From Candidatus Methanomethylophilaceae archaeon (GTDB taxonomy: Archaea; Thermoplasmatota; Thermoplasmata; Methanomassiliicoccales; Methanomethylophilaceae): a stretch of 37,887 nucleotides of DNA. The notes under the pieces were generated by a model. That model had not been told where the DNA came from, did not search any database, and saw only the letters and a program-made list of their open reading frames with translations. The stretch covers positions 1 to 37,887 of the forward strand of contig JAFWTC010000036.1 in the NCBI GenBank assembly GCA_017519045.1. Direction: 5' to 3'. Positions 1 to 20,809 of the stretch are shown in pieces; positions within the stretch are counted from its first letter, which is position 1, and each line of letters opens with the position of its first letter. Position numbers and translations under genes: made by a program.

Positions 1-383
1 CCCGGCGATTATCGCAGCTTGACACGACCTTCCTCGGCGCTCTAGCCGAACCATCCCCCATACGGCGTAGCATCGCCGCTGGCGTATGATCTAGCACACG
101 TCCAGGTTTCGTATGGTCGGCCGTCACTGGGTCCGCCCGCTCTCATCCGACGGGGCCCTCCGGCCTCTTCCCCGGGTCAGCATTGCTGTCCGGGTGCATG
201 AAATGCATCGCACGGTTGTGTCGTGCACTCCCCGCACTACTGTATACTATTTAAAACCTTTTATTATCGGAAGTCTATTCACCTATGCACCGCCCTTACT
301 AGCCAGGACGATTGCTCGTTTGCAGATCCTAGACATGTTCCCTGAATCACCGCAGCGGCGTTGTTCGAAATTCCGACCTTATG
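1..383. other. Gene-poor left end with small inverted repeats
   Basis: I see no convincing gene here. An open frame runs in from position 113, but its composition does not resemble the downstream enzyme and it is probably accidental. Small inverted repeats are present: TGCAT-GAA-ATGCA at 195-207 and GCACG/CGTGC at 210-214 and 222-226. An AT-rich TATA-like stretch (tatttaaaac) lies near 247-257. These could be the 3' structure of an RNA or a second promoter. I cannot tell which. Confidence 0.4.
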
Positions 384-487: not shown

Positions 488-1030
488 ATGGGCATCCCGT
501 TCTCGAACAGCGAAGAGATGGCCGCGACATTCTCGCGCAAATTCGATTTGAGAGACGTCGAGCTCATCCCCCTGATGAGCGCCAAGAACGTGATCGACGC
601 CCTGAACGTCGGAGACATCGACTACGGAGTCCTGGCCGTGGAGAACAAGACCGCCGGCAGGGTCATCGAGTCGGAGGAGGCGAAGAAGGACATCAGAGGC
701 CTGATCGAACTCGACACGATGTGGTCGCCCATCCACCATTGCGTATTCAAGAAGAATGCCGACGCGAAGGTGGAAAGGCTCGTCTCCCACATACAGGCCC
801 TGCTCCAATCGACCGGAAACCTTCGCAGGCTCTATCCCGGCGCTGAATTCCAGGAATGCGAGGACACGGCGTACGCCGCAGAGATGCTCGCCAAAGGGAT
901 GCTCTCCGAGGGCTCCGCCGCCGTATGCAGGAAGGACGCCGGATTGCACTACGGACTCTATCTCGACAACGAGAACGTCGAGGACGACCCCGACAACATG
1001 ACCCTGTTCTCACTGGTCAGGCTGGAATGA
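488..1030 (+). CDS. pheA: Prephenate dehydratase (catalytic domain only)
   Basis: Likely converts prephenate to phenylpyruvate, the Phe branch from chorismate. The product starts with a VKVGYMG strand followed by SNSEEMA, matching the PheA opening (GYLGP..TFSE). It continues with the GVLAVENKTAG segment, the counterpart of the PheA PIENS-x-G motif, and ends near DDPDNMTLFSLVRLE. No ACT regulatory domain follows, so this is the bare PBP-like catalytic fold of about 180 residues, shorter than bacterial PheA of about 280. The start is uncertain. The first canonical in-frame ATG after the predicted transcription start is 488, but the conserved first strand begins near 470. A rare initiator (ATT at 470) or an upstream ATG (335) is therefore possible. 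The gene converges on aroC and their 3' ends overlap by 21 bp. Confidence 0.72.
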   Translation: MGIPFSNSEEMAATFSRKFDLRDVELIPLMSAKNVIDALNVGDIDYGVLAVENKTAGRVIESEEAKKDIRGLIELDTMWSPIHHCVFKKNADAKVERLVSHIQALLQSTGNLRRLYPGAEFQECEDTAYAAEMLAKGMLSEGSAAVCRKDAGLHYGLYLDNENVEDDPDNMTLFSLVRLE

Positions 1031-2083
1031 CAGGTCCTGGTCCATCACCGTTATCGCGGCCATGGCCTCCACCACGCTCACCGCGCGGGGCACCACGCAA
1101 GGGTCGTGCCTGCCTTTGACCTCGACGTAATCGTCGCGCATCTCGCGGAGGTTCACCGTCCTCTGCCTCTTGGATATCGACGGGGTGGGCTTGAACGCCA
1201 CATTGAAGGTCAGCGGCATGCCGTCGCTCATCCCTCCGCACACCCCGCCCATGTTGTTGCTCAACGCGATTATGCGGCCGTCCCTGACGCAGTACTGGTC
1301 GTTGCTCTCGGAGCCCCTCATGGACGTTATCCCGAATCCCTTCCCGAACTCGACGCCCTTCACCGCGGGTATGGAGAACATCATCCTGGCGACCGACACG
1401 TCCAGCGCGTCGAACCATATGCCTCCGAACCCTATGGGAAGGCCGACGACCATGCATCCTACAACCCCTCCTACGCTGTCCCCGTCCTCTGCGGCTGCCA
1501 ATATCTCCTCGGACATGGCTGAGTCCAGGGAGGCGTCGGCCGCGCGGGTGCGGAACGCCTTGGAGCCTTCGGCCTCCTCGAATCCGCGGTCCTTCGAATC
1601 GCGGACGTTCCCTATGCTCCTGGTGTAGGCCGCGACCCTGATCCCCTTGGATGCCAGGTACTGCTGCGCCACCGCCCCGGCGGCCACTAGGGGGGCCGTG
1701 AGCCTAGCCGAGAACTGCCCTCCGCCGCTCACATCGTAATCCTTGAACTTGAAAAGGGCTGGAAGGTCCGCATGCCCCGGCCTGGGCGTCACGTCGAGCC
1801 CGTCATAAGACGAGGAGCGCCTGTTGCGGTTCATGATCCTTATCGTCACCGGGCCAACGACCTTCCCGTCGACCACGCCGTCCTCGAACAGGACTTCGTC
1901 CGGCTCCTTCCTGGGGGTCCCGATCCCGTCCTTGGGCTTCCTGAGCTCCATCGCCCTGGACACGCCCTCGAAATCTATCTCCATGCCTTCGGGGAGGCCT
2001 TCCAGCACGCATCCCACCGACTCGTCGTGACTTCTGCCGAAGAGCCTCAGGACCAGCTTGTTTCCTACGGAGTAGGTCTCCAT
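1010..2083 (-). CDS. aroC: Chorismate synthase
   Basis: A 357-residue chorismate synthase that makes chorismate from EPSP with reduced FMN. It is a normal length for the family. Visible signatures are the N-terminal GRSHDESVGCVLEG segment with the conserved SH, the SGGGQFSARLTAP segment corresponding to the family RxSARET block, NMGGVCGGMSDGMP, and the C-terminal GRHDPCVVPR motif. The ATG at 2083 lies 1 nt beyond the aroA stop (TGA, 2085-2087), so the two are almost certainly co-translated. It is the last gene of the minus-strand aromatic operon. The gene ends with TGA inside the 3' end of the convergent pheA gene, and no intervening terminator is visible. Confidence 0.95.
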   Translation of the reverse strand: METYSVGNKLVLRLFGRSHDESVGCVLEGLPEGMEIDFEGVSRAMELRKPKDGIGTPRKEPDEVLFEDGVVDGKVVGPVTIRIMNRNRRSSSYDGLDVTPRPGHADLPALFKFKDYDVSGGGQFSARLTAPLVAAGAVAQQYLASKGIRVAAYTRSIGNVRDSKDRGFEEAEGSKAFRTRAADASLDSAMSEEILAAAEDGDSVGGVVGCMVVGLPIGFGGIWFDALDVSVARMMFSIPAVKGVEFGKGFGITSMRGSESNDQYCVRDGRIIALSNNMGGVCGGMSDGMPLTFNVAFKPTPSISKRQRTVNLREMRDDYVEVKGRHDPCVVPRAVSVVEAMAAITVMDQDLSFQPDQ

Positions 2084-2084
2084 G

Positions 2085-3335
2085 TCAGCACCTCATGCCG
2101 AGGGAACGCATCTGCTCCACGAATCCCGGATACGACACGTTCCAGCATCCGTCGTCCTCCATGGACACTGGCCCGTCCGCGACGATCGACGCGACCGCGG
2201 CGGACATCATCAGCCTGTGGTCCCCTCCGTGCTCTATCCTTCCGCCGCGGAGGCGCTCCACGCCCCTTATCACGCAGCCGTCGTCCGTCCCTGTGACGTC
2301 TGCCCCGAGGGCCTTCAGCATCCTCTCCACGGAATCGATCCTGTCACTCTCCTTGAACCTCAGCTGGGGGGCGCCGTAGAGCCTGCTGACGCCGTCGGCG
2401 GTACTCAGGAGGACGGCCACGACCGGGAACAGGTCCGGGATGTCCGACATGTCCACGTCCGTCGCCTTAGGCCTCCCGATACGGCGGCAGACCAGGCATC
2501 CTCCCTCCTCGCAGACCTCGCATCCGCATCCGCGCAGTATGTCGACGATCCTCCTGTCCCCCTGGGGGTCGCCCATGTCCAGCCCCTCTACACGGGCCTC
2601 TCCGCCCAGGGCCCCCGCCACCAGGGGGAACGCCGCGGAGGAGAAGTCGGAAGGGACGCGGTAGTCGCACGGGACGTAGCGCTGAGGCTCGGCATGGTAT
2701 CCGGACGGAATCTCTTGGACGAGGACGCCGAACGAGCGCATGACCGCCAAGGTGACGTCCAGATACGGGCGGGACGCCCTCCTCCCAGTGACGCGGACAT
2801 CCATCGGCCTGCCGACCAGGGGGGCCATCATGAGCATGGAGGACACGAACTGCGAGCTCATGCTTCCGTCGATCTCGACGTAGTCCCCCTTAACCGGGCC
2901 CTTGATTGAGATGGGAGCCTTCCCGTCGTTGGAACGGCATTCGACGCCGCATCCGCGGAGCGCGTCCAGGAGCGGCCCCATCGGCCTCCTCCTTATCGAC
3001 TCGTCGCCGGTTATGACGGTCTCCGAATCGAAGAGGGCGGCGATTCCGGACATCAGCCTCATCGTGGTGCCCGAGTTCAGGACGTCCATGGTCCTGTCGG
3101 GCGCATGAAGGCCGCGGGACTCCACCGTCAGGACCCCGTCCCTGCGCTCGACCTCGGCCCCCATGGACCTGACCGCCTCCACCGTCGCCTTTATGTCGAG
3201 CGAGCATAGCGGATTGGCTATCTCGCATCTCCCTCCGGACAAGGCGGCGGCGATGACCGCCCTGTGAGTATAGCTTTTGGACGGGGGCACCGTGGCCTTC
3301 CCGCTAATGTCCCCTCCGTGAAACGTCATGTCCAT
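2085..3335 (-). CDS. aroA: 3-phosphoshikimate 1-carboxyvinyltransferase (EPSP synthase)
   Basis: A 416-residue EPSP synthase joining PEP to shikimate 3-phosphate. Motifs in order are PPSKSYTHR near the start (substrate-binding Lys), NSGTTMRLM, RRRPMGPLL, SSQFVSSMLM, PSDFSSAAFPLVAGAL, DIPDLFPVVAVL and RFKESDRI. All the usual active-site segments are therefore present. Two close start codons exist (MDM); the first at 3335 lies 1 nt after the shikimate kinase stop (3337-3339). It is embedded in the tight aromatic operon between shikimate kinase and aroC, matching the order of reactions. The stop is TGA. Confidence 0.95.
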   Translation of the reverse strand: MDMTFHGGDISGKATVPPSKSYTHRAVIAAALSGGRCEIANPLCSLDIKATVEAVRSMGAEVERRDGVLTVESRGLHAPDRTMDVLNSGTTMRLMSGIAALFDSETVITGDESIRRRPMGPLLDALRGCGVECRSNDGKAPISIKGPVKGDYVEIDGSMSSQFVSSMLMMAPLVGRPMDVRVTGRRASRPYLDVTLAVMRSFGVLVQEIPSGYHAEPQRYVPCDYRVPSDFSSAAFPLVAGALGGEARVEGLDMGDPQGDRRIVDILRGCGCEVCEEGGCLVCRRIGRPKATDVDMSDIPDLFPVVAVLLSTADGVSRLYGAPQLRFKESDRIDSVERMLKALGADVTGTDDGCVIRGVERLRGGRIEHGGDHRLMMSAAVASIVADGPVSMEDDGCWNVSYPGFVEQMRSLGMRC

Positions 3336-3336
3336 G

Positions 3337-4152
3337 TCATCTGGTCTCCGTGACTATAGTCCTGCATCCCAGGATCCCCGCAAGCCTCGCTCCGTTCCCC
3401 GGGCGGGCGATGACGGCCACGGCCGGGCCGGTTCCGGTGACTCCGGCGGCCAGCGCCCCGGCTTCCAGCGCCTTCTCCGCCAGTCCGTTCTCCACCCCGG
3501 CCAGCTCCGCGACGAACCTGCCGTTCCTGGTCAGAACGTCGAGATAGCCGTCCTTCAGCTGGGGGACCATGGCCCTGTATTCGTCCTCGAGCTCCTTGTA
3601 GCGGTCCACGGGCACCTTGCTCTTGGGGATGGACCTGTCCGGTATGCACACGACGACGTCGTACCTGGGAACCTCCTCGCGGAAGACTAGCGCGTCCTTC
3701 GAGTTGTCGGTCGCCACCAGCCCTCCCAGCCCGCATCCGCAGGCGTCGTCGAAGGCCCCGGTGATGGTCACCTTGCATTCCCTGGCGCAGCCCACGCCGA
3801 GGCGTATGGCCTCCAGGGGATCCATGGAGACGCCGAAATGGTCCAGCACTGCCGCTATGACCGCGTTGCACACGGAGCTGGAGCTCTTCAGGCCCATTGA
3901 CGGCGGGATCTCCGTCCTCACCTTCAAGCGATAGCCGGGCAGGTCGCGGCCTATCGCGTCCAAAGTCCTGGACACGCAGGTCCTGACGAGCAGGTCGTCC
4001 ATCCCCGGCCTTCCCTCCAGCTCCACCGTCACCCCGTCGGACGGGGAGATCTCCGCCTCCGTGCGCAGGGCTATCCCTATCGTGGACCCTATGCCGCACG
4101 GAATCGCGTTGAGGACCGAGACCGCCCCGCCGGAGATGCCGCGTCCCGTCAC
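3337..4152 (-). CDS. aroK: Shikimate kinase, archaeal GHMP type
   Basis: A 271-residue GHMP-family shikimate kinase, the archaeal non-homologous replacement of bacterial AroK. It phosphorylates shikimate at the 3-hydroxyl. The GHMP ATP-binding motif is PPSMGLKSSSSVCNA, followed by ITGAFDDACGCGLGG and the C-terminal motif TGTGPAVAVI. I chose the GTG start at 4152 because it overlaps the upstream AroDE stop as GTGA and gives the expected VTGRGISGGAVSVLNA opening with no extra N-terminus. The frame is open further upstream, but that is shadow of the aroDE gene. The symbol aroK is used loosely; some annotate the archaeal form as shkA. Confidence 0.9.
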   Translation of the reverse strand: MTGRGISGGAVSVLNAIPCGIGSTIGIALRTEAEISPSDGVTVELEGRPGMDDLLVRTCVSRTLDAIGRDLPGYRLKVRTEIPPSMGLKSSSSVCNAVIAAVLDHFGVSMDPLEAIRLGVGCARECKVTITGAFDDACGCGLGGLVATDNSKDALVFREEVPRYDVVVCIPDRSIPKSKVPVDRYKELEDEYRAMVPQLKDGYLDVLTRNGRFVAELAGVENGLAEKALEAGALAAGVTGTGPAVAVIARPGNGARLAGILGCRTIVTETR

Positions 4153-5429
4153 AGGACCGCCTCCCGCATCGCACGGACGTCGGGATCCCTCCCGAACCAG
4201 AGCCTGAAGGACTCCGCCCCCTGGGCGACCAGCATGTCCGTGCCGTCCTTGGCGGGGCATCCTCTGGAGCGCGCGAGGTCCAGCAGCGAGGTGCTCCTGC
4301 CGTAGACCATGTCGAAGACGTGCTGCTCCGGGCGAAGCGACGAGACGTCCGAAGGGTAAATGCCCTCCACCAGCCCGACTGGGGTGCAGTTCACGACCAG
4401 GTCGAATCCCTCCGTCCCGCCGGAATGGGCATGGGCGCCGAACTCGTGACACAGGCGCTTGACCGCGTCGCGGTTCCTTCCGGACACGTGGACCTCCGAA
4501 CCCGCATCGGACAGGGCGTACACGGCCGACCTAGCGGCCCCGCCCGAGCCCATCACGAGCGCTTTCCATTCCCTCAAAGGACATCCTTCCAGCGTGCGGA
4601 CCACTCCCGTCACGTCGGTGTTGAAGCCTTCCAGCCTTCCGCCCGAGTTCACCACGGTGTTCACCGCCCCGACCGCCTCCGCCGTCGAGGAAAGGGAATC
4701 AATCTGATCTATGACATCGCGCTTGTACGGGATGGTGACGTTGACGCCCCTCACGCCGTAGCCCCTGACGAAGTCCTCGAACCTGTCCAGGTCCGGAGAG
4801 TCGAACACCAGGTACCTCCCGTTTATCCCGGCCGCCCTCATGGCGGCCTCCTGCATGACCGGCGACCTGGTATGGGAAAGCGGATGCCCGACGATGCCCA
4901 CGATCTCGCAGCCGTCGCCGAGGGACTCCATCTCCTCCGCGCTCAGCTGCCCCGGGGCGGTGGGCTCCCCTTGGTATCCGAACGTGAACTCGTTCCCCAG
5001 GACGGACTGCCTTATGCGGGTGACCATCCCGATCTCCCCCATGCCGAGGAGGACGTGCCTCCTGCCGAGGGCGCGGGACGCGTCCAGTATGGAGCAGAGG
5101 TCGGCGAAGGACCCGGCGGCGAACGCCCCCTTCGAGACCTCCTGGTCCCCTGACGACAGCATCGAGACTATCTCCTCCGAGGACGGGGTGCGGGAGAAGT
5201 CGTGGAACGACCTGATCCTGCGCCTTCCGCGGAGGACGTCCGACTCGCCGACGTCGACGAGCCCCTGGAAGCCCTCCGGCACCAGGGAAGGGTCCTTCCC
5301 GCACAGCGTGACCACCGATTCGGGGCCCAGGCCGGGAGGGACCTCGTCGAACACGTCCAGGCGGACCTCGTGCATCTCCGCGCCCTTCCTGAGCGGGACG
5401 GGGGACCCGTAGGTCGTGCAGACCCTCAT
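4149..5429 (-). CDS. aroDE: Fused 3-dehydroquinate dehydratase - shikimate dehydrogenase
   Basis: A 426-residue bifunctional protein for two consecutive steps, DHQ to dehydroshikimate to shikimate. The N-terminal part, about residues 19-170, resembles type I dehydroquinase: EVRLD, SFHDF with the catalytic His, VSKGAFA with the Schiff-base Lys, and GEIGMVTRI. It is strongly trimmed, lacking the strand before the EVRLD segment, and the TFR segment reads TLCGK. The C-terminal part, about residues 172-426, is AroE: GHPLSHTRSP, NVTIPYK, GAVNT, GFNTDVTG, the dinucleotide loop GSGGAARSA, and NCTPVG. Start ATG 5429 directly abuts the DHQ synthase stop. The stop TGA overlaps the next GTG. The fusion call is strong; full activity of the reduced AroD half is inferred. 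Confidence 0.92.
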   Translation of the reverse strand: MRVCTTYGSPVPLRKGAEMHEVRLDVFDEVPPGLGPESVVTLCGKDPSLVPEGFQGLVDVGESDVLRGRRRIRSFHDFSRTPSSEEIVSMLSSGDQEVSKGAFAAGSFADLCSILDASRALGRRHVLLGMGEIGMVTRIRQSVLGNEFTFGYQGEPTAPGQLSAEEMESLGDGCEIVGIVGHPLSHTRSPVMQEAAMRAAGINGRYLVFDSPDLDRFEDFVRGYGVRGVNVTIPYKRDVIDQIDSLSSTAEAVGAVNTVVNSGGRLEGFNTDVTGVVRTLEGCPLREWKALVMGSGGAARSAVYALSDAGSEVHVSGRNRDAVKRLCHEFGAHAHSGGTEGFDLVVNCTPVGLVEGIYPSDVSSLRPEQHVFDMVYGRSTSLLDLARSRGCPAKDGTDMLVAQGAESFRLWFGRDPDVRAMREAVL

Positions 5430-6443
5430 TTACCTCTCCGTGATGGATTCCTCGACGGCCATCCCGAAGTGCCTGCCGCCAGACTCCAGCCTCGCCAGGA
5501 CCTTGTCTCCCGGCTTGAGAGACGTCACGGAGACCGCCCCCTCGCGGGCGACCAGCTTGATCGTCTCGGCGTTCTGAAGCATGACGCTGTACTCCCTGGA
5601 GCCGTCCGTGGCGGACACCATCAGCAGGGGCCTCTTCTCAACCTTGCACCTGCCGACCGAGGCCACCCTCGTGCGCCCTATCCTGTCGCAGAGAAGGACG
5701 GGGTCGCCGCTGCGTACGTCCGACAGGTATCTCGTCCCCCCTCCGGGGACGCTTATGTAGCAATGGACCGCGCCGGCGTTGACCCTGAACGGCCTGCTGG
5801 CCACGTACCCGTTGTCCTCGCTCTCCGACTGAACCAGGAAAAGGCAGTTGGAGTACGAGCCGACCAGCATCCCCTCGCCGGGGACCATCATGCTGCAGGT
5901 GTCCACGCAGACCCTGTCCCCCATCTCCACCGGGACCACGGAGGTCACGGTCACCTCGGACAGGTCCTCGGAGGGGCTCTCGGAGACTACGTCCTTGAAC
6001 CCGCGCAGGAGGGAAGGCGAAGGCGAGTCGACGACTATGCCGTCCACCCCCTTCTCCATGGTCGTGAGGAACAGCCTGGCGTCGGCGGGGTCGGAGGCGC
6101 ACGCGTACACGGAGGTCCCGCTCCCGGCGAACCTGGCTATCATGTTCTCCAGCGGGATGACGGTCCAGTCGGAGGTCCTGACGACCACGGCCTTCCTCTT
6201 CCCGGCCAAGGACATCGCCCTCTCCTGGCCCTCTGGGTCGTCGATGTCCACCGACTCCATCGACCCGTCCACGAAGGCGCCGTCCTTGACGTAGAAGACG
6301 GACATCCTCCCGAGGCTCTCGAAGGCCTCGTCGCCTTCCCTCAGAATGAACGAGGAGAACCCCGCCTCCAGGCCTTCGGTCACGTATTCCTTCCTGTCGT
6401 CCGCGTCGTCCGGGACGTCCGCCCTTACGATTATGTCCTTCAT
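5430..6443 (-). CDS. aroB': 3-dehydroquinate synthase II (archaeal)
   Basis: A 337-residue archaeal DHQ synthase II (MJ1249 family). It oxidatively deaminates and cyclises 2-amino-3,7-dideoxy-heptulosonate to 3-dehydroquinate, bypassing DAHP. Recognisable segments are the N-terminal MKDIIVRADVPDD, VDGIVVDSPSP in the middle, and the conserved C-terminal half with DTCSMMVPGEGMLVGSYSN, RPFRVNAGAVHCYI, GGGTRYLSDVRSGD, GRCKVEKRPLLMV and LQNAETI. The start at 6443 is chosen because its ATG overlaps the ADH synthase TGA as ATGA; the frame is open upstream but that stretch is shadow. The stop is TAA, directly abutting the next ATG. Together with the preceding gene it defines the archaeal entry to the shikimate pathway. 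Confidence 0.93.
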   Translation of the reverse strand: MKDIIVRADVPDDADDRKEYVTEGLEAGFSSFILREGDEAFESLGRMSVFYVKDGAFVDGSMESVDIDDPEGQERAMSLAGKRKAVVVRTSDWTVIPLENMIARFAGSGTSVYACASDPADARLFLTTMEKGVDGIVVDSPSPSLLRGFKDVVSESPSEDLSEVTVTSVVPVEMGDRVCVDTCSMMVPGEGMLVGSYSNCLFLVQSESEDNGYVASRPFRVNAGAVHCYISVPGGGTRYLSDVRSGDPVLLCDRIGRTRVASVGRCKVEKRPLLMVSATDGSREYSVMLQNAETIKLVAREGAVSVTSLKPGDKVLARLESGGRHFGMAVEESITER

Positions 6444-7240
6444 CTGAACCCTCGCAGGAACTTGGCCGCTTCCTCGACCGAGTAGCCGTCCAGGACTATG
6501 CTGGATATGGCCTTGGTTATTCCCATGACGTTCCTGTTCTGGAAGACGTTCCTTCCGATGGACACCCCGTGGCCGCCCGCCTCTATGGAGTCGTGGACCA
6601 TGTTCAGGATGTCCATGTCGGAGTCCATCTTGGGGCCTCCGGCAATCACGACCGGCGCGAGCGCGCCCCTGCAGACGTCCTTGAAGGTGTCGATGTCGCC
6701 GGTGTAGCTGACCTTGACTATGTCCGCGCCTATCTCGGAGGCCGCCCTGGCGCAGTGGGCGATCGCGTGGGGGTCGAAGGAATCCTTTATCTCGGGGCCG
6801 CGGGGGTAGGCCATGACGATCAGAGGCATCCCCCAGTCGTTGCACTGCTCGGATATCCTCCCCGCCTGCTCCAGCATGGAAGGCTCGTCGAGGGACCCGA
6901 AGTTGATGTGGATGGAGACGGCGTCCGCGCCGTACTTGATCGCCTCCTCTATGGTGGTGATCTGGACCTTGCTGTTCCTGTTGGGGCCCAGGTCCGTGGA
7001 TGCGGACAGGTGCATTATAAGCCCGACATCCCTCCCCGACTGGCGGTAGGAGTACCTTATCAGACCCTTGTGCATGAGGACGGCGGTGGCCCCTCCGTTG
7101 GACACGTCGTCCACGGTCTTCCTCATGTCGATCAGGCCGTCCAGCGGGCCCACGGATATCCCGTGGTCCATCGGCACTATGACCGCGTTCCCTGTCTTCC
7201 TGTCCGTTATCCTCTCCATGCGTATGCTCTTTCCATACAT
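6440..7240 (-). CDS. aroA': 2-amino-3,7-dideoxy-D-threo-hept-6-ulosonate synthase (ADH synthase)
   Basis: A 266-residue class I aldolase of the FbaB/DhnA family. It condenses a 6-deoxy-5-ketofructose phosphate derivative with aspartate semialdehyde to start archaeal aromatic biosynthesis. Motifs include VPMDHGISVGP near residue 25, ADAVSIHINFGS, VMAYPRGP, the Schiff-base lysine segment DIVKVSYTGD, and the phosphate-binding VVIAGGPK and GGHGVSIGRNVFQ. The pairing with DHQ synthase II by ATGA overlap is the usual archaeal arrangement and separates it from a fructose-bisphosphate aldolase. ATG 7240 is preceded by an AT-rich promoter in the 48-nt gap after tyrA. Confidence 0.93.
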   Translation of the reverse strand: MYGKSIRMERITDRKTGNAVIVPMDHGISVGPLDGLIDMRKTVDDVSNGGATAVLMHKGLIRYSYRQSGRDVGLIMHLSASTDLGPNRNSKVQITTIEEAIKYGADAVSIHINFGSLDEPSMLEQAGRISEQCNDWGMPLIVMAYPRGPEIKDSFDPHAIAHCARAASEIGADIVKVSYTGDIDTFKDVCRGALAPVVIAGGPKMDSDMDILNMVHDSIEAGGHGVSIGRNVFQNRNVMGITKAISSIVLDGYSVEEAAKFLRGFR

Positions 7241-7288: not shown

Positions 7289-8353
7289 TCAACAATCCTC
7301 GGAGCCCTTGAAGTATCTCCTTCCGGCGTCCATGAGCTCGACGAATCCCTTCGGATCGTCGCTCAGGGACCTCTCGCGGAGGTCTTCGACGGCTTTTGAG
7401 AACAAGTCCCACATCTCGTCCCGGTGGGAGTTCATGTGCTGTATCTCGTAGTAGAGCATGGGGTCCTCCGACGCCACGGACATGTTCGTGTCCAGACCCT
7501 TCCCGAAGGTGGTGGACGACACCGTCAGCAAGTCCTCGAAGCCGTATCCGCTCCTCTCCAGGACCGTGAACAGCGCTATGTTGACGGCGTGGGTGAGCCC
7601 CAGGACGTAGGACATGTACGAATCGTGGCTGGAGATGTCCATGACCCTGATGTTGCCGCCCCTGTCGGCGAACAGGGATTCGGCCTCCTAGACCGCCCGC
7701 CGGCATCCGCAGTCGCAGATGATCAGGTTCCTTCCGTACAGCGACGTCGCGGAAGGCCCGAACATCGGGTGGACGGAGCAGACCTTCCTCCTCGTGGCCA
7801 TGTCCCTCAGCCTTCCTTCTACCGGGGTCTTGAGGGAGGTCAGATCGAATATCAGGGTGCTGGATGTACAGATCCCGTCCAGCTCGGACAGGACCCCGTC
7901 GGCGGAATGAATCGGGACGGAGACCACGACGACGTCGCACCCGGCGCACTCGGAGATGTCATGACTGTCGGGAGATGCGGGATCGACCACGATGACGTCG
8001 TGTCCGGAGTCCTTGAAGAACGAGGCGGTCCACGCCCCCATCTTCCCGGCCCCGCCGACCACAGCAATCCTGAGGTTCCCGGAATCCGTCGGGAGGGCCG
8101 CCTCCGCGTCCACCGCCTCCTTTATGACGGCGGAGGCCAGACTCCTGGACACCTCGTCGCTGAGCCCGCAGGAGCGCCCGTTCTCCAAGTATCTGTCTAT
8201 GACCGCGCCCTCGACGGCGACGTTGCGGATAGGGAGGCCCTCGCGCCTCTTGACGCGTCCAATCTCCTTGGCGATCTCGGTGCGCTCGGCCACCAGCCTG
8301 GCTATCTCCACGTCCTTCCTGCGGATCTCGTCCCTCAGCGCGTCCAATTCCAT
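7289..8353 (-). CDS. tyrA: Chorismate mutase / prephenate dehydrogenase with an in-frame TAG codon
   Basis: A bifunctional Tyr-branch enzyme: chorismate to prephenate, then to 4-hydroxyphenylpyruvate. The AroQ-type mutase helix bundle covers about residues 1-85 (LDALRDEIRRKDVEIARLV). The NAD Rossmann loop GGAGKMG lies near residue 98, then SVHPMFGPSATSL, and a C-terminal helical domain with SHDSYMSYVLGLTHA. Codon 222 (7688-7690) is TAG. The frame is unchanged on both sides and the conserved PDH sequence simply resumes (EAESLFADRGGNIRVMD), so this is a point amber codon, not a frameshift. With it read through, the protein is 354 residues, a normal size for the fusion. Candidate explanations are pyrrolysine insertion, recent nonsense decay, or sequencing error. 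The terminal stop is TGA. ATG 8353 is preceded by GGTGA, a ribosome-binding site. Confidence 0.85.
7688..7690 (-). other. In-frame amber (TAG) codon in tyrA, possible pyrrolysine site
   Basis: The minus strand reads GTC TAG GAG GCC, placing TAG at codon 222, between the Rossmann domain and the helix leading into the C-terminal domain. No clear gene in this window uses TAG as its stop. Methanomassiliicoccales are known pyrrolysine users. The local position looks like the start of a surface helix, where a lysine-like residue would be tolerated. Decoding as Pyl is inference. Confidence 0.6.
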
Positions 8354-19758: not shown

Positions 19759-20809
19759 CTCGTCTCCAAGCGCTCTTCCTGCGCATCCTTACTAAAATGA
19801 TTATGAACAGCGGGCAGCCGATGATGGCGCTGACCACCCCGACGGGAAGCCCGTACTCCCCCGACACCCTGGCGATGCAGTTCGCGACCAGGAGGAAGAA
19901 TCCTCCGAACACGGCCGAGGCGGGAAGCAGGTGCTTGGCCTCCGACCCCACGAACAGCCTCGCGATATGGGGGCCCACCAGCCCCACGAAGCCTATCGTC
20001 CCGGTGAAGCTGACCACCGCCGCGGTCATCAGGGACACCACGGTGATCTCCGTCAGGATCGTGGACCTGGGGTCGACCCCCATGGAGTGGGCGGAGTTCG
20101 ATCCGGCGGTCATGACGTTTATGCGCCTGTGCTGGAAGAACAGGAACGCCATGCAGGGGACGCTGATGGCCAGCGGGATGGGTATCTTGTCCCACGTGGT
20201 GAGGGCGAGCGTGCCCACCCTCCACGCGTAGATGTTGGACAAGGTCTCCTCGGACGACGTGATCATTATGAGCGAGACCACCGCCGAGAAGATGTACATC
20301 ATGGCTATCCCGATGAGGATTATCTTCGTGGGCGTCATCCTGCGACGGATCGAGAACGACAGAATCACCGACACCGGGATCAGCGAGAACACGAACGCCA
20401 TGACCACGGTGGCCCAACGCTCGCTGAAGAACGGGATCGCCCCGCCGAGCACTATCGCCAGGGAGGCCCCCAGGAGCGCTCCGGACGAGACCCCCATCGT
20501 GTAAGGGTCCGCCAGCGGGTTGCGGAGCATCGATTGCATGACGGCTCCGCCGACGGCGAGAACCGCCCCGGTCAGGACGGCGAAGACCCCTATCGGCAGC
20601 CTCGTGTAGATCACTATGTCGTCGGCCGTCTCGTCTACTATGTTGCCGGTGATATGGTCTACGATGACCCTGTAGCAATCCGCGAAGCTCAGGTCGTAGA
20701 GCCCCACCGACAGGGATAGGAACAGCGCCAGGCATATGAGCGCGGAGAACAGGACAACGAACAGCCACTTGCGGCGAACGATCCTGTAATAATCGCCCTT
20801 CCCGGCCAT
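19694..20809 (-). CDS. FecCD/BtuC-family permease B (system 2)
   Basis: A 371-residue permease, the counterpart of the system 1 B subunit. It has TRLPIGVFAVLTGAVLAVGGAVMQ, NPLADPYTMGVSSGALLGA, FTGTIGFVGLVGPH and GLPVGVVSAIIGCPLF. The conserved membrane part ends near IILVRMRRKSAW. A further ~20 residues run out of frame into the ATPase gene before a TGA, giving the 65-bp overlap. ATG 20809 (MAGKGDYYRIVRRKW) lies inside the 3' end of the upstream permease gene, so translation is probably coupled. Confidence 0.9.
   Translation of the reverse strand: MAGKGDYYRIVRRKWLFVVLFSALICLALFLSLSVGLYDLSFADCYRVIVDHITGNIVDETADDIVIYTRLPIGVFAVLTGAVLAVGGAVMQSMLRNPLADPYTMGVSSGALLGASLAIVLGGAIPFFSERWATVVMAFVFSLIPVSVILSFSIRRRMTPTKIILIGIAMMYIFSAVVSLIMITSSEETLSNIYAWRVGTLALTTWDKIPIPLAISVPCMAFLFFQHRRINVMTAGSNSAHSMGVDPRSTILTEITVVSLMTAAVVSFTGTIGFVGLVGPHIARLFVGSEAKHLLPASAVFGGFFLLVANCIARVSGEYGLPVGVVSAIIGCPLFIIILVRMRRKSAWRRGVCHEAGYRRSRVRLFQHAGA

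Follow-up and report, generated by a model that had tools for sequence, protein, structure and literature searches.

Should an amber codon inside a gene of tyrosine biosynthesis be read as a stop, as an error of the assembly, or as pyrrolysine (Pyl)? The question is raised by tyrA in the window, by which we mean the whole stretch of DNA analysed here, 37,887 nucleotides (positions 1 to 37,887 of contig JAFWTC010000036.1, assembly GCA_017519045.1) from the metagenome-assembled genome (MAG) of a Candidatus Methanomethylophilaceae archaeon, denoted G000 in the comparisons below.

The tyrA gene and its neighbors

With the TAG read through, the tyrA frame on the minus strand opens with ATG at 8353, closes with TGA at 7289-7291, and yields a product of 354 residues. 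Its features are as follows.

7289..8353, minus strand: tyrA, encoding a bifunctional chorismate mutase/prephenate dehydrogenase; 354 codons, one of them an in-frame TAG (PF01817, PF02153, and PF20463 above cut-off)
8102..8338, minus strand: chorismate mutase domain CM_2, residues 6-84 (Pfam, above cut-off)
7649..7963, minus strand: PDH_N, nucleotide-binding domain, residues 131-235, with the TAG inside (Pfam, above cut-off)
7688..7690, minus strand: in-frame TAG at codon 222, probably encoding pyrrolysine (a sense codon in 29 of the 29 relatives read)
7328..7633, minus strand: PDH_C, dimerization domain, residues 241-342, located after the TAG (Pfam, above cut-off)

The initial annotation held that both halves of the enzyme lie in one frame, separated by the TAG at codon 222, that there is no frame change, and that the downstream half keeps conserved motifs. 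All of this was borne out. The 354-codon frame has no lesion besides this TAG; TyrA of the nearest relative, G070, is collinear over 352 residues with 85% identity and the frame unchanged; and the motif SHDSYMSYVLGLTHA is found in the downstream half of the product. The best NCBIfam matches are annotated as prephenate dehydrogenase or chorismate mutase/prephenate dehydrogenase (E 3e-41), and among the 25 models listed none reached its curated cut-off. In named genomes, the closest matches come from MAGs of Methanomethylophilaceae/Methanomassiliicoccaceae, many of them from rumen or gut, the closest of all being a water buffalo rumen MAG (85% identity), in a search that may have omitted entries from the genome of the window itself. 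A profile search of the whole genome for PDH_N returned a single match, tyrA itself, and the second TyrA match in the genome covers chorismate mutase residues only. As the genome is 91% complete, a second prephenate dehydrogenase copy is unlikely.

The tyrA gene is the first in a minus-strand run and is followed by six genes of the aromatic pathway, all intact, from all of which TAG is absent:

6440..7240, minus strand: 2-amino-3,7-dideoxy-D-threo-hept-6-ulosonate synthase, directly following tyrA (TIGR01949 above cut-off)
5430..6443, minus strand: 3-dehydroquinate synthase II (NF002627, 376 bits, slightly below the model cut-off of 392)
4149..5429, minus strand: N-terminally extended shikimate dehydrogenase aroE (TIGR00507 above cut-off)
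3337..4152, minus strand: archaeal shikimate kinase (TIGR01920 above cut-off)
2085..3335, minus strand: aroA, 3-phosphoshikimate 1-carboxyvinyltransferase (TIGR01356 above cut-off)
1010..2083, minus strand: aroC, chorismate synthase (TIGR00033 above cut-off)

The extended aroE is probably an aroD-aroE fusion, as judged from the NF006802 alignment. The edge of an archaeal 23S rRNA gene lies at the window start (1-82, minus strand).

Selection on tyrA around the TAG

We compared tyrA with its G070 counterpart using a script for the Nei-Gojobori dN/dS (omega). In the 130 codons after the TAG, dN/dS was 0.087 with dS of 0.69, and in the 221 codons before it, 0.159 with dS of 0.76. Positions invariant in 12 relatives are all kept in tyrA, 77 of 77 after the TAG and 81 of 81 before it; two of the relatives, each left out in turn for comparison, kept 77 of 77 and 81 of 83, respectively. 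Judged from these substitutions, tyrA downstream of the TAG is under purifying selection, and relaxed selection is not seen. The possibility of nonsense decay, raised in the initial annotation, was checked against the same data, and neither the omega of the downstream part nor the absence of a second lesion gave a sign of it. The constraint appears long-standing, while the TAG itself may postdate most of the substitutions that separate tyrA from G070; a polarised count of changes in tyrA yielded too few to date the TAG.

Codon 222 in relatives and in the structure model

Of the 102 genomes searched, 89 had a match, and 72, including G000, had a TyrA match at E < 1e-79. TAG is listed in two of these 72 matches, in G000 and in G037. 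A comparison of this position among related strains had been suggested with the initial annotation. In the 29 other genomes for which loci were obtained and codon 222 was read, the residue is Asp (13), Glu (10), Arg (3), Ala (1), Lys (1), or Ile (1), that is, Glu or Asp in 23 of 29, and TAG occurs there in none of the 29. The closest relative has GAG. In alignment A1, all 27 relatives have a polar residue in this column, although Ala or Ile is present in two of the 29 sequences of the codon-level set. In an AlphaFold2 model of TyrA with Lys at this position (mean pLDDT 92.8), whose best PDB match is 2pv7, the TyrA of H. influenzae, residue 222 lies in the helix 218-228, and the polar column suggests that it is surface-exposed.

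The tyrA of the more distant relative G037 (locus L048, G037:C8:12500-16500) has Glu in column 222 and its own TAG in column 219, three residues off in the same helix. This is probably an independent amber codon in the same tolerant helix. In G037, pylD is over the cut-off and pylS is not.

The pyrrolysine machinery

The genome encodes a complete set of Pyl genes. The search suggested with the initial annotation recovered pylT, pylS, pylB, pylC, and pylD, all on a contig other than that of tyrA. In particular, there is a tRNA-Pyl with the CUA anticodon (L032:10704-10777, minus strand), pylS matches TIGR02367 with 258 bits against the cut-off of 178, and PylB, PylC, and PylD match TIGR03910, TIGR03909, and TIGR03911, respectively, all above cut-offs. 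The five genes occupy one 19-kb stretch of contig C8 together with the methylamine methyltransferase genes mtmB (PF05369), mtbB, and mttB, each of which has an in-frame TAG. In the family, pylD is above the cut-off in 78 of 102 genomes. Rfam PYLIS elements were found in mttB and mtbB (L032), and no Rfam PYLIS match was found anywhere in the window that contains tyrA. According to PMC9499178, Pyl insertion is likely a matter of competition with the release factor, and PYLIS is not required.

Usage of TAG in the genome

We surveyed TAG usage in 36 sequences that together make up a quarter of the genome (470,740 bases, the window included), using a simple codon-usage gene caller, so that some of the calls will be spurious. 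Among 393 called genes, 288 end with TGA, 48 with TAA, and 30 with TAG, and 27 run off an end. When TAG was read as sense, 27 of 372 genes had an internal TAG. We compared 24 TAG-bearing products with protein families: a domain spans the TAG in ten of them, namely MttB, MtbB, MtmB, TyrA, UMP kinase, LarC, two ABC transporters, a histidinol-phosphatase-like PHP protein, and a nitrogenase-like protein, and eight are undecided by domains. Judged by domain ends or coding score, six genes seem to end at TAG or to continue with a short extension:

L035, L045, L095, L096, L100, and L101:1523: apparent TAG-ended genes

As far as these calls go, few genes stop at TAG, which is often an apparent sense codon, while not being purely sense.

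Some TAG-bearing genes deserve individual mention. Four long proteins have one or two TAGs with a coding signal on both sides (L092:18364-19851, L101:6850-11436, L101:13420-18234, and L091:2546-4246); three of them contain LRR_5 repeats and one has no family match. In L101:1523-5410, a Sel1-repeat gene is followed by TAG and then by an in-frame Tsr3-like domain (Ribo_biogen_C), and this may be either a stop at TAG or a read-through fusion. The nitrogenase-like gene (L093:8227-9261) was considered as CfbD of F430 synthesis and rejected, as it matched only nitrogenase-type NCBIfam models, all below cut-off. With 14 matches in the genome and no CfbD identity, it is not evidence for an essential TAG gene. 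A nitrogenase-like gene of another genome (L115, G066:C90), 59% identical to that of G000, has one TAG at another position.

Additionally, we scanned codon scores for coding regions interrupted by TAG, TGA, or TAA, with one flank filter, and obtained 14, 7, and 2 interruptions, respectively. Once events that had a start codon among their first five codons were removed, 11 TAG and one TGA remained. The three TAG events with an early start codon are at window 19803-20504 (an ORF with no Pfam match), L092:6184, and L099:6796, the last being an ABC transporter in which a domain spans the TAG despite the early start codon. Nine TAG interruptions outside methyltransferases passed the filter. Four genes did not pass it: tyrA, for which the 15 codons preceding the TAG have a weak codon score, the nitrogenase-like gene, mtmB, and LarC.

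In hdrC, a gene central to methanogenesis, this MAG has a private TGA (L086:11744-11746, G000:C16). It replaces a conserved Trp, present in the three relatives read, and apart from the interrupted gene no good hdrC match was found in this genome. This TGA is probably a MAG consensus error, and suggests that the MAG contains nonsense artefacts. Codons one step from a stop number 23,367 for TAG versus 13,613 for TGA plus TAA; scaled by this opportunity, the one hdrC event leads to an expectation of ∼1.7 artefactual TAGs per sample, with a wide margin, compared with the nine TAG interruptions observed outside methyltransferases. This expectation is the main limit on confidence in the Pyl reading of tyrA.

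TAG codons in UMP kinase and RNA polymerase A''

Two further genes of core functions are interrupted by TAG. The archaeal UMP kinase (L036:7743-8474, G000:C4; TIGR02076 above cut-off) has it at codon 115, inside the conserved motif VMGGT-PGHTTDAV, and no other full-length UMP kinase match was found in the genome. In the same genus, all 31 genomes have a match, near full length in 26, and among these 26 a TAG is listed for G000 alone; the seven relatives read at codon 115 have Thr, Glu, or Val.

The gene for RNA polymerase A'' (L098:2176-3657, G000:C28) has a TAG at codon 100. It was found in 26 of the 31 genomes of the genus, with one TAG in seven and no internal stop in 19. All seven TAGs, from seven species (loci L098 and L131-L137), fall into one aligned column, and across the whole family, in which the gene was found in 88 of 102 genomes, TAG is listed for the same seven only. 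Within 48 codons after the TAG, there is no start codon common to all seven, and in one species there is none at all. The 36 codons before the TAG had omega from 0.09 to 0.23 in three of four comparisons and 0.62, a weak value, in the fourth. We consider this TAG a candidate conserved pyrrolysine in RNA polymerase, and one more surprising than that of tyrA. As the curated A'' model does not cover the sequence preceding the TAG, which forms an N-terminal extension, a small protein of its own followed by a restart is possible.

How the TAG of tyrA is best explained

We consider it likely that UAG222 is decoded by tRNA-Pyl(CUA) to give a full-length TyrA with pyrrolysine at residue 222. This agrees with the candidate put forward in the initial annotation, as the pyl genes are present and the gene is not decayed; it rests on the unbroken frame, the purifying selection before and after the TAG, the pylTSBCD set, the single prephenate dehydrogenase, and the other TAG-crossed genes. 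An error in the MAG consensus or assembly, in which case the true codon would be sense and TyrA ordinary, is unlikely, while deserving some weight, since the TAG is private to one MAG in which a comparable private TGA breaks hdrC. Nevertheless, TAG interruptions are in excess: 11 of 14 TAG interruptions versus one of nine TGA/TAA interruptions remain after the start-codon removal, whereas codon opportunity favors TAG just 1.7-fold, and the TAG of RNA polymerase A'' recurs in seven genomes. The excess itself is weak (p ∼0.03, or ∼0.07 without the two methyltransferases in the set, by hand arithmetic).

Far less probable is genuine nonsense, with translation stopping after residue 221, tyrA being a recent pseudogene, and the cell taking up tyrosine. 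TAG still seems to terminate some genes in this genome, and a very recent mutation would leave no further trace; yet tRNA-Pyl and its synthetase are present, the downstream part shows low omega and no second lesion, the six neighboring aromatic-pathway genes are intact, and it is hard to regard the TAGs of both UMP kinase and RNA polymerase A'' as null mutations. We give the least credence to a split or regulated enzyme, in which the choice between termination and read-through at the TAG would let Pyl supply purposely tune tyrosine synthesis. Competition at UAG would indeed give some 221-residue product with a complete chorismate mutase domain. Still, the TAG lies within PDH_N rather than between domains, and relatives do not share it, so that no selection for such control is visible.

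If UAG222 is read as Pyl, the lineage of this species would have gained the codon by a one-step change of a glutamate codon. The change to amber would have been nearly neutral, since the helix position tolerates many different residues. A TAG that is private to the genome and in a variable column fits neutral drift. Pyl at residue 222 would have no catalytic role and would require no special insertion element, as Pyl-tRNA and the release factor would compete for the codon and thereby set the fraction of read-through. TyrA would then depend on ongoing Pyl synthesis. The initial annotation had tied tyrosine synthesis to Pyl supply; a special, selected link of this kind is unsupported, the TAG being private and in a variable column, whereas a passive dependence would hold provided that the TAG is real.

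Relation to known pyrrolysine proteins

In methylamine methyltransferases, Pyl is catalytic. MtmB, MtbB, and MttB resemble the predicted TyrA in having Pyl at UAG, and all three have TAG in this genome. In these enzymes, the amber position is conserved within the enzyme class (PMC2933860), in contrast to the private TAG in a variable column of TyrA.

A Pyl residue in TyrA would not be exceptional, contrary to what the initial annotation implied, as in-frame TAGs in non-methyltransferase genes have been published for the order (PMC4153887, PMC5011839). Ca. Methanomethylophilus alvus has 16 predicted Pyl proteins besides methyltransferases, half of them with amber-free homologues in the two other genomes compared, and TAG makes up 1.6% of its stops; the authors argue that amber mutations become stable in such cells and may make Pyl essential (PMC4153887). 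In the rumen strain ISO4-H5, 46 genes, methyltransferases included, have an in-frame amber codon (PMC5011839). Both belong to the same order as G000, share the pyl system, and have TAGs in housekeeping genes as well as in others; those reported for the two include MtxX, Cas1, DGGGP synthase, and geranylgeranyl reductases, as well as adenylate kinase, the latter in ISO4-H5 (PMC4153887, PMC5011839). They differ in that TyrA is absent from Table 7 of PMC4153887, and that the main text of PMC5011839 contains no mention of prephenate, tyrA, chorismate, or tyrosine.

The tRNA-His guanylyltransferase Thg1 of Methanosarcina acetivorans also contains Pyl, which was attributed to neutral evolution (Heinemann 2009, as described in PMC2933860). 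As proposed for TyrA, a single lineage gained an amber codon in a housekeeping enzyme, and the residue is not essential for Thg1 activity (PMC2933860). Unlike Pyl in TyrA, which is a prediction, that in Thg1 has been tested in the laboratory. No report of Pyl or an amber codon in TyrA was found in the openly available articles searched. Reportedly, a 2025 study found Pyl to be encoded by every TAG codon in certain archaea.

TyrA is probably a further case of the Pyl proteins already predicted in this order. It adds a single-copy biosynthetic enzyme to the proteins that probably contain pyrrolysine by drift. For annotation, it means that such tyrA genes will be called as two fragments or as pseudogenes unless the TAG is read through. 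More tentatively, and at slightly less than an even chance, UAG may in effect be a sense codon for Pyl in core metabolism and transcription of this subclade (TyrA, UMP kinase, and RNA polymerase A''); the pyl genes would then be essential even without methylamines, and Pyl may be fixed in the RNA polymerase. With TAGs in TyrA, UMP kinase, and RNA polymerase A'' of one genome, it becomes testable whether Pyl is dispensable for the methanogens of this clade.
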